This document shows, piece by piece, positions 6,242-11,561 of a DNA stretch of 34,090 bases. The notes below the pieces were generated by a model that was not told the origin of the DNA, did not search any database, and worked only from the letters and a program-made list of their open reading frames with translations. Positions within the stretch are counted from its first letter, which is position 1. The number at the start of each line of letters is the position of its first letter. The position numbers and the translations under genes are program-made. Origin of the DNA: Candidatus Zixiibacteriota bacterium (GTDB taxonomy: Bacteria > Zixibacteria > MSB-5A5 > GN15 > JAAZOE01); contig JAZGGI010000017.1 of NCBI GenBank assembly GCA_036480375.1, positions 1 through 34,090 on the forward strand, written 5' to 3'.

Positions 6242-8149
6242 TTATCGAATTTTTTGCATTTCGGCTATCATGTCATCGGGCTCGACTACCCCGTACATGA
6301 CTCGTTTAACATTACCGTGAGAATCAAGAAGCAATGTTGTCGGAAGTGAGTAATGCTTGAGGCCAAAGCGAGCCATGAAATCTTTAGTAATAGGGGTATC
6401 AGCTTTTTCCAGTTGAATCTTTAGAGGCACGAATCTCTCGGCTTCAGCGGCTACTTGGGGATTGTTGAATGTTTTCTTTTCCAGCACGCGGCAGTTGATG
6501 CACCATGTCGCCCAAGTATCAATCAAAACCGGTTTGCCTTCGGTTTTGGCGCGGTCGAGTCCCTGCTGCAAATCGGTTTCCCAGGGAATGAGATGCTTTT
6601 CGGCCGATGAACTCAAATTCATGGAGGGCATCCATTCCGATACGGCCGGGAATATAAAACCCTGAGAGAGCATCGAACCGATTATAAAATATAGCCCGGC
6701 AATAAAGGCGAGAATGCCGACAAATTTTTTGAGTCTGAGGAAAAATCCGCTTTCAGGCGATAGACGGTCAAGCCCGCCTCCGAAAACGGCCAAAGCAAGG
6801 AATAACAGCCCGGCCAGAATTGCCGAAACTTCCGGTGAGATGACAGTTTTGAGAAAATAGAGAGCCATTAGAAGCAAAATAAAACCGAAGAATCTTTTTA
6901 TTTGATCCATCCATTCCCCGGCTCCGGGTAATTTGCTTATCGATGATGAAAATGTCCCTATAATGATATAAAGCGTGCCGAGTCCGATGGCAAAGACGAA
7001 TAAAGTAAGAAATCCAAAGAGGGGCGAACCGTAGGTGGCGATGTATAATAATATCCCGGCTACAAAGGGGCCGACGCAGGGCGATACGACCAGAGCAGCT
7101 ACGATACCAAGAATAATCGGCCCGGCGATTCCGCCTTTATTTTGTGCCGTACCCAGCTTTTGGCGAATTGATGAGGGTATATTCAGTTCGTACAGGCCGA
7201 ACATGGAAAGCGAAAAGATTACGAAAATAATCGCAATCGCGACTACGACTATTGGATTAGCCAACCAGGCTCCGAACACTCCCCCGACCAGAGAAACAAT
7301 CAATCCCATTATGCCGTACATGATGGCCATCGATCCGACGTAAAACAAAGACATGATAAATCCGCGAAAAACACCTCGATCCTGACCGGCGAAAATCGAA
7401 ACAGTAATGGGAATCATCGGATAAGTACAGGGAGAAAATGAAAGTAGCAATCCGGCAATGAACGCCAATCCCAAGGCCATGAAATATCCCCAGAAACCAT
7501 ACTTTTCAATGACTCTGGCCAACTCGGAATCATCCTGCGGGATTTGATCGGATTGCTCATTCGATTGAATTTCCGCTATGTCGATTCCCGCAAATATCTC
7601 GGACGCAATCGGCTGCCCTTCGTCCCCAACGGTAATAATAAAATCGATCTCTTTGGTTTCGGGAGCCAGGCATACTTTATTGTCGCACGGTTGATATCTG
7701 AATTTCAAGGGCAATGAGATATTACCCGATTGGGCGTCATCAGCAACCCGAATATTAAAATAAATGGCGGTTTTGCCGTCATAGACGGACATCTCTTCAT
7801 CGAGAAGTAGAAACGTGTGCGCCTCGGGATATTTAATATCGCTCGGTATCAATCCGGAAACGGTATCAAATTTTAATTCGGCGCCGATATAATAGACCTG
7901 CTTAGGATATGCGGAATTTATATGCCAGCCTTGTTCGATATCTAGTATCAGCGCGGCTGGATATACTTTTCCGGGTTGAACCGAGGTATAAGATAGCATC
8001 GGGGAAATTTGTATGACATTTCCTTCATCTTCCCAGGGTTTGTCAAGATCGGTGAGAGCCCCAAAGGCCGAAACGCTTCCGAGCATCAACAGTAAAATGA
8101 AAAATCCTCGAAAATTATTTTTTTTATCTTTGGGCGAATTATCTTTCAT
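6242..8149 (-). CDS. dsbD: Thiol:disulfide interchange protein DsbD
   Basis: A 635-residue protein with the full three-part DsbD architecture. There is a signal/anchor (about 14-30), then a periplasmic N-terminal domain with the redox pair Cys155/Cys160 (QPCDNKVCLAP). A membrane domain (about 220-495) of roughly eight helices carries Cys241 (FSPCTYP) and Cys358 (SPCVGP). The C-terminal thioredoxin-like domain has WCINC (Cys550/Cys553) and the cis-Pro segment SLPTTLL. DsbD carries electrons from cytoplasmic thioredoxin across the inner membrane to keep periplasmic thiols reduced. A thioredoxin gene lies 3.1 kb upstream on the same strand. A good sigma-70-like promoter precedes it (8184-8212). 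Confidence 0.95.
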   Translation of the reverse strand: MKDNSPKDKKNNFRGFFILLLMLGSVSAFGALTDLDKPWEDEGNVIQISPMLSYTSVQPGKVYPAALILDIEQGWHINSAYPKQVYYIGAELKFDTVSGLIPSDIKYPEAHTFLLLDEEMSVYDGKTAIYFNIRVADDAQSGNISLPLKFRYQPCDNKVCLAPETKEIDFIITVGDEGQPIASEIFAGIDIAEIQSNEQSDQIPQDDSELARVIEKYGFWGYFMALGLAFIAGLLLSFSPCTYPMIPITVSIFAGQDRGVFRGFIMSLFYVGSMAIMYGIMGLIVSLVGGVFGAWLANPIVVVAIAIIFVIFSLSMFGLYELNIPSSIRQKLGTAQNKGGIAGPIILGIVAALVVSPCVGPFVAGILLYIATYGSPLFGFLTLFVFAIGLGTLYIIIGTFSSSISKLPGAGEWMDQIKRFFGFILLLMALYFLKTVISPEVSAILAGLLFLALAVFGGGLDRLSPESGFFLRLKKFVGILAFIAGLYFIIGSMLSQGFIFPAVSEWMPSMNLSSSAEKHLIPWETDLQQGLDRAKTEGKPVLIDTWATWCINCRVLEKKTFNNPQVAAEAERFVPLKIQLEKADTPITKDFMARFGLKHYSLPTTLLLDSHGNVKRVMYGVVEPDDMIAEMQKIR

Positions 8150-8283: not shown

Positions 8284-9681
8284 CTATTTGCCCCGCTGCC
8301 TCATAAAATCGGTAATAGCTTCCCGTAGCAAAAGATAAACTTTTTCTTCATCCAAAAGAGCTACCATTTTGTTGGCAACCTGCTGTGAAATCGCTTTTAT
8401 AAGTTCGCGGGAAAGATTTTTTAATTCTGGTTCGGCGATATCTTCCAAATTTTCATCCCATTGGATTTTGTCTTTGGATTTGGAAGAAGTAGTATCCCGG
8501 GGAGGAATATTGGTCACCGGTATTCGCGGTTCATCGTCGGTCGAAATCTTTTCCATTTCTTTTTTGAATTCGGAAATGAATTTTTCAACCGCTTCACTTT
8601 GCGATTTAATGGGGGTTTCTTTTTTCAATTCCGGCTGTGCTGCTGCGGGAGTGGCTTGAGGCTGTTCAACCGGGATTGAATGAGTCCGGGGCGCCTGTGC
8701 CTGGGGCGGTTGAGAAGCCGGCGCAGGAGCGGACGGGCTTAAAGATTCTTCCGGTTTCGCGATATTAAGTGATCCGCTATCATCGGTAGATGCCTTCGGT
8801 CCTTCTTTGCCCTCATTTTTCAGTTCATTTATAAACCAGTTATAGTCGTGATCATCGCTGTCGGTTTCCATAGGTTTTTCAGGGGATGTGATCCCGAATT
8901 GATCGGTAACAATTTCAATTTTACTTGATTCGGAAAGTTGGTTGGCTGCTTGCGATCTTAATTTGGCGCTGTCGGTCCCGAGGAATTCAGGCCGCTCTTC
9001 AGTTTGTTCTGAAGGGGTATCCTCCTGTTGTTTTTTCTGTGAAGGAGATTGGCCGGTTGCCTGCGGTTGCTGTACGTTCTTCACCGGAATATTTACGCTA
9101 TCGTTCTTTTTTGTGGTAATAGTACTATCATCTACCTGTTCTTTATATTCAAAGCCAACCATTGATCCTTCGGTAACTTTTTTGTTATGGAGTCGAAAAA
9201 CTCCGGTATCATTCCCGATTACTTCGGATCCATCCACCTCGATTTTTTCAATTCCCAAAGCCGCGTCAATCACATTGTCCTCGATATCATTGCCATCAAA
9301 CGGAGCCTGTCCCGGAATCTGCGTTTCCTGACCGGTAAAGGCAACGACGGAAGACATAAAATCGCGGGGAGTAAACGGCTTGTTAATAATGACTTCCTGG
9401 GGAAAATTAAGAGTCTGTCCGCTCGAGGCATCATGCAACACTAATAGCGGCACGGAGTTTCCTCCGGGTATCGAACCGATCGCTTCATAAAAGGGTTGTC
9501 CCTGGCTGTCACAAACGTCGGAAGAAATCAAAATCAAATCTATCTTACTATCCTGTAAAACCTGCCTGGCGTTTTCGGCCGTTTCCACGGAGATGACATT
9601 CAGCCCGCCCTGACGGAGCAACGACTCAGCTATGCCCCGAACAGCTATCGACGGTTCAATTATAAGGACAATCTTTGACAT
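8284..9681 (-). CDS. Response-regulator receiver-like protein with long disordered linker
   Basis: A 465-residue protein. Residues 1-117 look like a CheY-type receiver: strand KIVLIIEPS, a candidate phospho-acceptor Asp55 (LILISSD), and Lys101 in the conserved INKPF. The acidic pair is reduced to Glu9, and the usual Thr/Ser after the fourth strand is replaced (VLHDAS), so it may not be phosphorylated normally. Residues about 120-400 are low-complexity, rich in Gln, Pro, Ser, Glu and Ala (for example APAPASQPPQAQAPR). The last 45 residues are predicted helix (LSRELIKAISQQVANKMVALLDEE), similar to C-terminal helices of some gliding or polarity response regulators. No output domain is recognisable. 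The stop is eight bases upstream-side of the next gene's territory; the rhomboid gene precedes it by eight bases, so the two are probably co-transcribed. Confidence 0.75.
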   Translation of the reverse strand: MSKIVLIIEPSIAVRGIAESLLRQGGLNVISVETAENARQVLQDSKIDLILISSDVCDSQGQPFYEAIGSIPGGNSVPLLVLHDASSGQTLNFPQEVIINKPFTPRDFMSSVVAFTGQETQIPGQAPFDGNDIEDNVIDAALGIEKIEVDGSEVIGNDTGVFRLHNKKVTEGSMVGFEYKEQVDDSTITTKKNDSVNIPVKNVQQPQATGQSPSQKKQQEDTPSEQTEERPEFLGTDSAKLRSQAANQLSESSKIEIVTDQFGITSPEKPMETDSDDHDYNWFINELKNEGKEGPKASTDDSGSLNIAKPEESLSPSAPAPASQPPQAQAPRTHSIPVEQPQATPAAAQPELKKETPIKSQSEAVEKFISEFKKEMEKISTDDEPRIPVTNIPPRDTTSSKSKDKIQWDENLEDIAEPELKNLSRELIKAISQQVANKMVALLDEEKVYLLLREAITDFMRQRGK

Positions 9682-9689
9682 TGACGGCG

Positions 9690-10550
9690 TTATTCCTTTT
9701 TGGATAAGAGATCACTGGCATTATCAAGGAACTGGCGTTCTTCTTCCGAAATATTTTCTATTCCGACCTCATTAATCTTATCGAGAATATGGTCAACTTT
9801 CTTCATTATTTCTTCGGCCTTTTCCCGATTTTTGTCCAACTTACGACTATTCCGCTTAAATTTCAAATTCGCGAAAAATCGCCACGGTGACAACTTATAA
9901 AACAAATTCCTGACTCGCCAGTCAAGTTTAAGATAAATAAATCCGATCACGGCCCCGCCCAGATGTGCCAGATGTCCAACCCCGCTGGAAGTAGCGTCGA
10001 AAGACGCCAAAAATTCCAGACCGACAAAAGCAATAACGGCCCATTTAACTTTAACCGGAATTAGAAAATACAAATAAATTTTACGATTGGGAAACATGAC
10101 CGCGTAGGCGACCAAAAGGCCGTAAATCGCTCCGGAAGCGCCGATAGTCGGTATCAGAGAGGTAGGCATAAACATTACCGTGAAAATTCCCCCGGCGATG
10201 CCGCAGAGGAAATAATACTTATAAAATCTTTTTGTGCCCCAGGTTAATTCAATTTCGGTCCCGAACATCCAGAGAATAAACATATTCATCAGAATATGAA
10301 AAAAACCGCCATGCAGGAACATATAAGTTATGAGTTGATAAAAAGATAAATCCTGAAGTACTCGGATCGGGGTCAATCCCAGGAGAGCAATCAACTCTCG
10401 GCCAACCAGCATCTGAAGAATGTAGATAGCAACATTCGCAATGAGTAGAATTTTGACCCCGCGCGATAATCCACGCTGTGGACCAAAACGAATATTTCCA
10501 AATCCGGGATTGTTTCCGTAAGCTCTCATAATCTGTCTAATTATCGGCAA
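9690..10550 (-). CDS. Rhomboid-family intramembrane serine protease
   Basis: A 286-residue membrane protein with rhomboid hallmarks: HGGFFHILMNM (His85, Asn89; oxyanion side), the catalytic GASGAIYG (Ser139) and GHLAHLGG (His196 as the base). There are about six membrane helices between 30 and 210. The C-terminal 75 residues are cytosolic, basic then acidic and helical. Rhomboids cleave single-TM proteins within or near the membrane. The start is uncertain: the listed TTG at 10550 and an ATG at 10529 (residue 8) both lack a strong ribosome site. It lies 59 bases after the tiny single-TM ORF at 10610-10780, in the same direction. A rhomboid-substrate link with that ORF is possible but only inferred from position. 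Confidence 0.9.
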   Translation of the reverse strand: MPIIRQIMRAYGNNPGFGNIRFGPQRGLSRGVKILLIANVAIYILQMLVGRELIALLGLTPIRVLQDLSFYQLITYMFLHGGFFHILMNMFILWMFGTEIELTWGTKRFYKYYFLCGIAGGIFTVMFMPTSLIPTIGASGAIYGLLVAYAVMFPNRKIYLYFLIPVKVKWAVIAFVGLEFLASFDATSSGVGHLAHLGGAVIGFIYLKLDWRVRNLFYKLSPWRFFANLKFKRNSRKLDKNREKAEEIMKKVDHILDKINEVGIENISEEERQFLDNASDLLSKKE

Positions 10551-10609: not shown

Positions 10610-10780
10610 TTATTCAGCTTGCGATTTGTTTGTTTCCGGTTCCTCCGGAACCGAGGCTGCCTTATCATTGCAGGCCGGAGTATGTCAGGTCGGTATCCCT
10701 AATTTGGGAAAAACATACCTGACTAAGACCAGCCAGACCACGACGAAAAGCGCGACAAGAAGTATCTGTGTGATATCCAT
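10610..10780 (-). CDS. Candidate small membrane selenoprotein (in-frame TGA)
   Basis: The ATG at 10780-10778 lies one base after the stop of the CoA-binding gene and has AGGA seven bases upstream. Thirty-one codons encode a single TM segment (about residues 5-20, ILLVALFVVVWLVLV) followed by RYVFPKLGIPT. A TGA comes next (10687-10685). The frame then stays open for 24 codons to a TAA at 10612-10610: HTPAC, then a hydrophilic Glu/Lys/Ala/Pro-rich tail. Read as selenocysteine, the product has 56 residues with Sec32 and Cys37 (U-x4-C). Two hairpins follow the TGA directly. trxA is two genes upstream in the same run, which fits a redox role. The alternative is a 31-residue membrane protein that truly stops at the TGA; the open extension alone would occur by chance about one time in three. 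The motif P-K-x-G-[IV]-P-T-U-x4-C matches my unverified memory of small bacterial membrane selenoproteins. Confidence 0.6.
10637..10676 (-). promoter_or_regulatory. SECIS-like hairpins downstream of the in-frame TGA
   Basis: Beginning eight bases after the TGA, GGC-[C]-TGC (10676-10670) pairs with GCA-GCC (10660-10655) around a nine-base loop. This has the same plan of three pairs, one bulged pyrimidine and three pairs as the E. coli fdhF mini-helix, although the loop lacks its leading G-U. Immediately after it, CGGTTCC (10653-10647) pairs perfectly with GGAACCG (10643-10637) around a GGA loop. The second helix is the more stable, but its loop is 38 bases from the TGA, at the far edge of bacterial SECIS spacing. 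Confidence 0.4.
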
Positions 10781-10781
10781 C

Positions 10782-11225
10782 TCAGATTCCTATTTGTTGA
10801 TGCTCTTTCAAAATACACTTATCCATAACAATGGTAACACCCGCTTCTTTTGCCAGCCTATAAGATTCTTCCGAAACGACCCCCTCCTGCAGCCATATAT
10901 ATTTGGCTCCGATTTTTATGGCTTCTTCCACTATCGGAGGAGTCGCCTCTGCCCGCCGAAAAACATCGACAATATCTACTTTTTTCCCAATCGCCGTCAG
11001 ATCAGGATACGATTTGCACCCGAGTATTTCGGTCTTGCGGGGATTAACCGGTATTACGCTGTATCCGTTGCTCATCAGGTAATTGGCAACTCCATAGGAC
11101 GGTCTTTCCGGTTTGGGTGACAACCCGACAACTGCGATTGTTCTCGATGACGTTAGAATATTCCTAATTTCCTCCGCACTCGGATTTTCCCAATTAGTGC
11201 TTTGAGATGATTCATTCATACTCAA
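10782..11225 (-). CDS. CoA-binding-domain protein (YccU-like)
   Basis: A 147-residue protein formed by one Rossmann-like CoA-binding domain. The nucleotide loop is VVGLSPKPERPSYGVANYL, then IPVNPRKTEILGCKSYPDL, VDIVDVFR and AKYIWLQEGVVSEES, all typical of the CoA_binding_2 family whose role is undefined. The listed start is a TTG at 11225, five bases after AAGG; an ATG two codons later (11219) is an alternative. Its TGA at 10784-10782 is one base from the ATG of the small selenoprotein candidate, and trxA ends 12 bases upstream. The three genes are thus very likely one transcript. Confidence 0.85.
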   Translation of the reverse strand: MSMNESSQSTNWENPSAEEIRNILTSSRTIAVVGLSPKPERPSYGVANYLMSNGYSVIPVNPRKTEILGCKSYPDLTAIGKKVDIVDVFRRAEATPPIVEEAIKIGAKYIWLQEGVVSEESYRLAKEAGVTIVMDKCILKEHQQIGI

Positions 11226-11237
11226 ATTATCCTTCGT

Positions 11238-11561
11238 TTAAAGAACATTATCGACTTTCGACATTAATTGCGCTTTTGGTACGGCTCCGATAACCTGATC
11301 GACGACTTCTCCATTTTTGAAAAATAGCAGAGCAGGAATCGACATAATCGAAAATGAAGCCGGAGTTTTTGGGTTGGAGTCAACATCAATTTTCGCGATT
11401 TTTATTTTGCCGTCGTACTTGCCGGCTATTTCATCCAAAATCGGCGCAATCATTTTGCAGGGTCCGCACCAGGCCGCCCAGAAATCGACCAGAACCGGAA
11501 TATCAGATTTTTTAACTTCAGCTTCAAATGAATCATCGGTTACGTGAACAGGTTGAGACAT
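11238..11561 (-). CDS. trxA: Thioredoxin
   Basis: A 107-residue protein with the canonical active site WCGPCK (Cys32, Cys35), the preceding VLVDFWAA strand, buried Asp25-type position, and cis-Pro in MSIPALLFF. The length is that of E. coli thioredoxin 1. It reduces cytoplasmic disulfides and would be the electron donor to the DsbD encoded nearby. AGGAGG stands a few bases before the ATG at 11561. It is the first gene of the run trxA, CoA-binding protein, small selenoprotein candidate, rhomboid. I found no clear promoter in the 250-base divergent space between it and dtd. Confidence 0.97.

Follow-up and report, generated by a model that had tools for sequence, protein, structure and literature searches.

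The window analysed here is a 34,090-nucleotide stretch of a Candidatus Zixiibacteriota contig (JAZGGI010000017.1), and it contains a minus-strand run of genes into which a very small reading frame is inserted, between those encoding a CoA-binding protein and a rhomboid protease (Table 1). The reading frame begins with an ATG at position 10780, one base past the stop codon of the CoA-binding gene and preceded by an AGGA site, extends for 31 codons to a TGA, and then continues for a further 24 codons to a TAA at 10612-10610, which is exactly the arrangement described in the original prediction. With the TGA translated as selenocysteine (U), the product is MDITQILLVALFVVVWLVLVRYVFPKLGIPTUHTPACNDKAASVPEEPETNKSQAE, in which U32 and C37 are spaced five apart and the tail peptide is AASVPEEPETNK. 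AlphaFold2 (mean pLDDT 69) models the tail as disordered with low confidence and ends the helix (residues 3-27) just before U32, which lies about 9 residues past the predicted membrane segment and at position 32 of 56. In a comparison of 16 close pairs, pN/pS was 0.19 upstream of the UGA and 0.59 downstream of it, indicating that the tail is more weakly constrained than the front; the hairpin discussed below probably restrains synonymous changes in the tail as well. A search of the window against Rfam at the gathering threshold yielded no match. Standard gene calling erases the gene, because the reading frame is cut at the UGA.

Table 1. Genes and RNA features of the selenoprotein locus in the window
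Feature	Position	Strand	Basis
trxA (thioredoxin), upstream	11238..11561	-	Pfam PF00085; synteny
CoA_binding_2 protein, immediately upstream of the putative selenoprotein gene	10782..11225	-	Pfam PF13380; synteny
Putative selenoprotein gene, 56 codons plus TAA; helix 3-27, Sec32, Cys37, hydrophilic tail	10610..10780	-	TGA=U translation, homologs, AlphaFold2 helix
UGA codon 32, predicted to be read as selenocysteine	10685..10687	-	Aligned TGA in all 107 of the copies counted
First hairpin, candidate of the original prediction; weak, unconserved	10655..10676 (about)	-	Fold; family comparison
Second, SECIS-like hairpin; 8-bp stem, GGA loop, loop starting 38 nt after the UGA	10636..10654	-	Fold in the window, conservation in its own family, covariation in relatives, enrichment over control TGA stops
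Rhomboid protease, downstream	9690..10550	-	Pfam PF01694; synteny
Response-regulator-like protein, after the rhomboid gene	8284..9681	-	Weak PF00072; synteny
DsbD-type thiol:disulfide interchange protein	6242..8149	-	Pfam PF02683; synteny

Genomic neighbourhood and thioredoxin fusions

The gene order originally read from the window (trxA, CoA-binding protein, the small reading frame, rhomboid, with dsbD nearby) was confirmed by Pfam, and the redox setting inferred from it is not only real, but stronger than first proposed. Of 64 Zixiibacteriota loci, 59 have trxA as the neighbour on the upstream side. On the downstream side, the neighbour is a rhomboid gene in 57 of these loci, with the response-regulator-like gene conserved as the next gene in 52 and a match to the dsbD query located on the rhomboid side in 41, some of them weak and ccdA-like. 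The CoA_binding_2 gene intervenes between trxA and the selenoprotein gene in 19 of 64. Locus L096 (genome G104) encodes a small Cys-rich rubredoxin-like reading frame (CPFC...CPIC...CKPC) between the CoA-binding and selenoprotein genes.

Outside the phylum, we found no rhomboid neighbour. Among 121 reading frames near the outside loci, thioredoxin is still the commonest family (9), ahead of ArsR regulators (4), YgaP-like membrane proteins (3) and FmdB-type Zn ribbons (3), and AhpC/Redoxin and rubrerythrin domains also occur among the neighbours. A TrxA-like tblastn match on the same strand and within about 2.4 kb exists in 9 of 42 outside genomes, two being fusions, and most outside loci have no thioredoxin gene close by. 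At locus L193 (G235), the selenoprotein gene is preceded by an operon-like run encoding a thioredoxin, a CcmH-like protein, a DUF1858-like protein, a thioredoxin-like lipoprotein and OsmC, all named by eye except for the thioredoxin and OsmC.

In each of the two fusions (G349, L205:3989-4516; G207, L243:2512-3147), a single open frame encodes the helix, crosses the UGA and continues as a thioredoxin domain (PF00085; 6e-29 and 8e-29, respectively). They are 47% identical and belong to different taxonomic families. A separate internal start for the thioredoxin portion is not excluded, because in G349 an ATG immediately follows the UGA. Thioredoxin is the only recurrent partner both inside and outside the phylum as well as the only fusion partner found, but the 56-residue protein does not itself have a thioredoxin fold: it lacks both PF00085 and a CxxC, and PF00085 appears in the family solely as the fused domain of G349 and G207.

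Distribution of the family and conservation of the UGA codon

Using protein and profile searches of 132, 386 and 385 genomes, we identified 109 copies of the family in 108 genomes. Of these copies, 66 are from Zixiibacteriota, and the remaining 43 come from 42 genomes spread over 33 taxonomic families outside the phylum. One of these searches found the family in 42 of 385 broadly sampled genomes. Our detailed count comprises 107 copies, 64 from six families of the phylum and 43 from outside of it; the phylum contributes two more (G026 and G039), which likewise carry the TGA at this site. Matches in G127, G123, G005, G007 and G278 were left out as chance or partial, and searches of viral contigs, and of plasmids with one query, gave no family match. 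A single genome, G485, encodes two diverged copies (G485:C8 and G485:C24; L241 and L242).

A TGA occupies the aligned site in all 107 counted copies, whereas TAA, TAG and Cys codons are absent from it. The final terminators are mixed, both in the phylum (TAA 28, TGA 21, TAG 15) and outside (TGA 22, TAG 12, TAA 9), with TAA and TAG together accounting for 64 of 107. As the copies are related, these counts are not independent trials. Relatives having TAA or TAG at the site, or a broken frame after it, would have refuted the original prediction; instead, the TGA is kept and the frame after it remains open. The residues before the TGA follow the motif [FL]-P-[KR]-x-G-[VI]-x-[TSG], and P at U-7, G at U-4 and T, S or G at U-1 are found in 97, 96 and 106 of the 107 copies, respectively. 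Cys is located at exactly U+5 in 65 copies and another residue is found there in the other 42, and consequently not every member can work through a Sec-Cys pair with that spacing.

A check for homologs with either U or Cys aligned at position 32 had been proposed. The former were found, but our searches of 132, 386 and 385 genomes gave no Cys form at the Sec position; a Cys-like homolog in G272 was rejected as a chance out-of-frame match inside another gene. In the absence of a Cys form, the usual Sec/Cys pair test cannot be applied. The only aligned copy without the TGA is that of G376 (L201), whose genome contains selA and selB; the codon at its Sec position is CGA, for Arg (ILPAIGISTRMSDGCK*). 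This copy could be decayed, re-purposed or the product of a sequencing error.

Selenocysteine machinery and the hairpin after the UGA

The genome of the window encodes the complete set of components on which the original prediction depended, as selA (494 bits), selB (319 bits), selD (383 bits) and a tRNA-Sec (74 bits) with a TCA anticodon were all found. Its SelD (L010, G000:C26) is a selenoprotein itself, encoded with an in-frame TGA and a hairpin having a GGC loop 20 nt downstream. Since selA is nearly universal within the order, its co-occurrence with the family is uninformative there and was tested outside the phylum instead. Among those genomes, 115 of 254 carry selA, and all 28 members from the first search reside in selA-positive genomes (p = 3e-11). 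For the outside members found later, selA was detected in all except G469, which has selB. Within the phylum, the TGA carriers G001, G029, G031 and G050 gave no usable selA match and G104 gave a fragment only; completeness of these genomes is 83-93%, and a full selB is present in G029 despite its missing selA match. In another genome carrying the family, selA itself contains one in-frame TGA (G046:C64:9741-11075), possibly due to an assembly error.

Two hairpins follow the UGA in the window, and the first had been proposed to be the SECIS on account of its resemblance to that of fdhF. This assignment fails, as the first hairpin is not conserved even within the taxonomic family to which the window belongs, with its six members. 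It is the second one, UCGGUUCC-GGA-GGAACCGG (10654-10636), that is kept among them and that covaries in relatives. In taxonomic family f4, the hairpin lies at a fixed distance from the UGA and can therefore be tested without fitting. Its covariation there is 0.452, compared with 0.206 +/- 0.022 after shuffling (0 of 500 reach the observed value) and 0.05-0.17 when the arms are slid. Some compensations combine a silent Leu change (CTT to CTC) in one arm with a replacement of Glu by Gly in the opposite one, which suggests selection upon the RNA rather than the protein. Loops are GGN, GUN, AGUU or CGGGU (3-5 nt) and mostly start 16-26 nt after the UGA; this distance is 22-23 nt for most of the phylum and 35-38 nt for the family to which the window belongs. 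Family f3 pairs in a register that differs by one base. Applying the same criteria at -5 kcal/mol to family members and to TGA stops of other reading frames in the same loci, we found a SECIS-like hairpin in 53 of 64 phylum copies and 34 of 43 outside copies, whereas the control stops gave 19 of 230 and 76 of 308. Most members fit the published bacterial SECIS model, in which the loop lies 16-37 nt from the UGA (PMC13188914), and the 38 nt spacing of the window is one beyond that range.

Interpretation and relation to known selenoproteins

Together, the TGA conservation, hairpin covariation and selA co-occurrence are far beyond chance, and we consider it nearly certain, judging from the sequence evidence, that the window gene encodes a selenoprotein. 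Sec insertion itself is inferred, no experiment having been performed; presumably, the hairpin 3' of the UGA would direct SelB and tRNA-Sec to read codon 32 as selenocysteine. Small membrane peptides are common and the tail is less constrained than the front, so one might still regard the TGA as an ordinary stop terminating a 31-residue membrane peptide, with the hairpin serving as a terminator or regulatory RNA. This is very improbable when TAA and TAG never occur at the site despite their frequency among the final stops, and it would leave unexplained the Cys at U+5, the open in-frame tails, the two thioredoxin fusions through the UGA and the restriction of the family to selA-positive genomes outside the phylum. 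Hairpins after stop codons can promote readthrough in other systems, and it is conceivable that the UGA is read through, with the aid of the hairpin, by near-cognate insertion of an ordinary amino acid rather than Sec. Nothing in our analysis favours such readthrough, and it becomes scarcely credible when the 28 of 28 selA-positive outside genomes are set against the base rate of 115 in 254, the loop type and spacing fit the published SECIS model (PMC13188914), and the SelD of the host has its own GGC loop. The tight spacing to the rhomboid gene in Zixiibacteriota would also be compatible with a selenium-sensing leader, in which passage through the UGA in the presence of selenium controls translation of the downstream gene. 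The lack of any rhomboid found at outside loci and the conservation of P at U-7, G at U-4, T at U-1 and C at U+5, which argues for a working protein, render a leader function quite improbable.

As to what the selenoprotein does, it is probable, with ample room for doubt, that it is a selenol redox protein anchored in the membrane, facing the cytoplasm and receiving its electrons from thioredoxin. Lys and Arg residues number 195 after the helix and 12 before it, which by the positive-inside rule predicts an N-out, C-in topology and would expose the Sec to cytoplasmic thioredoxin. The N-terminal helix would then serve as the anchor, the C-terminus would be cytoplasmic, and Sec32, usually accompanied by the Cys at U+5, would be positioned at the cytoplasmic surface of the membrane. 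From there, Sec may attack an oxidised substrate at the membrane, be it a hydroperoxide, a disulfide or some other oxidised group, after which a Sec32-Cys37 selenenylsulfide would form and be reduced by the thioredoxin that the neighbouring or fused gene supplies. The topology, the U-C bond and the role of thioredoxin as reductant are all inferences built upon features evident from sequence analysis (the family, the conserved TGA, the covarying hairpin, the Sec machinery, and the thioredoxin synteny and fusions), and the substrate is not known. One more specific form of this scheme, a membrane-tethered selenol peroxidase for lipid hydroperoxides, remains a possibility, though a doubtful one: the Sec lies near the predicted span and thioredoxin, AhpC/Redoxin and rubrerythrin domains are found among the neighbours, but the protein has no peroxidase fold or active-site tetrad, and a short flexible loop would make for an unusual peroxidase. 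Several outside loci encode ArsR regulators, YgaP-like membrane proteins or FmdB-type Zn ribbons, and the selenoproteins SaoB and SaoC as well as MerT-like ones have been catalogued (PMC13188914), which might point instead to the handling of metals or metalloids (As, Hg, Se or similar) at the membrane. We consider this unlikely, since no metal-transport gene is consistently present and thioredoxin alone recurs as a partner.

Returning to the thioredoxin-coupled selenol, we offer only tentatively, and at slightly less than even confidence, the broader proposal that this is a widespread family of membrane microproteins existing in nature solely in the Sec form, which would act on the inner membrane surface as a selenol driven by thioredoxin, in a chemistry where Cys apparently cannot take the place of Sec. 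A family of this Sec-only kind bears directly on what selenium can do and sulfur cannot; the small size of its members places it among the simplest systems for addressing this question, and the thioredoxin fusions point to the partner. If the window gene does encode a selenoprotein, it would also add an apparently undescribed family, one that ordinary gene calling misses.

The family is apparently undescribed so far. A search of NCBIfam release 20.0 with the window protein gave no match at E<=10, other members gave only chance matches to ATP synthase, apart from the thioredoxin match of the fusion, and no Pfam model matches the selenoprotein family in the eleven members scanned. We found no paper describing it, although subscription papers and supplements were outside our scope and a description could have been missed. 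A 2026 catalogue lists 119 bacterial selenoprotein families (PMC13188914, Table 1), which share with the new family a UGA-encoded Sec with an adjacent hairpin, a redox association and, often, a Sec near a Cys; by reading of their motifs, none corresponds to P-x-x-G-x-x-T-U-x4-C in a one-helix protein. The hypothetical selenoprotein families from GOS have many Cys homologs (PMC2398784), unlike the present one, for which none were found. Families without Cys homologs may be missed by deep-Sep, according to its authors (PMC12013277), and the present family could be overlooked for that very reason.

Several known systems nevertheless offer parallels, all of them partial. The SECIS of E. coli fdhF is a hairpin just after the UGA with a G/U opening its apical loop. 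The new family has both traits and differs in its loop sequences, their 3-5 nt length and their spacing. The same two traits characterize the published bacterial model (PMC13188914).

FeoB-associated Cys-rich membrane proteins resemble the new family in having one helix with thiol residues after the span, and none of the eleven new-family members scanned had a Pfam match to them. SELENOK and SELENOS are small eukaryotic one-pass membrane selenoproteins with a cytosolic Sec-bearing part and the Sec near the C-terminus. We claim no sequence relation to these, and in the new family the Sec is located right after the span rather than C-terminally; the small size, the single span and, as predicted for the new family, a cytosolic Sec-bearing part are common to both, and some members of the new family read G-G-U.
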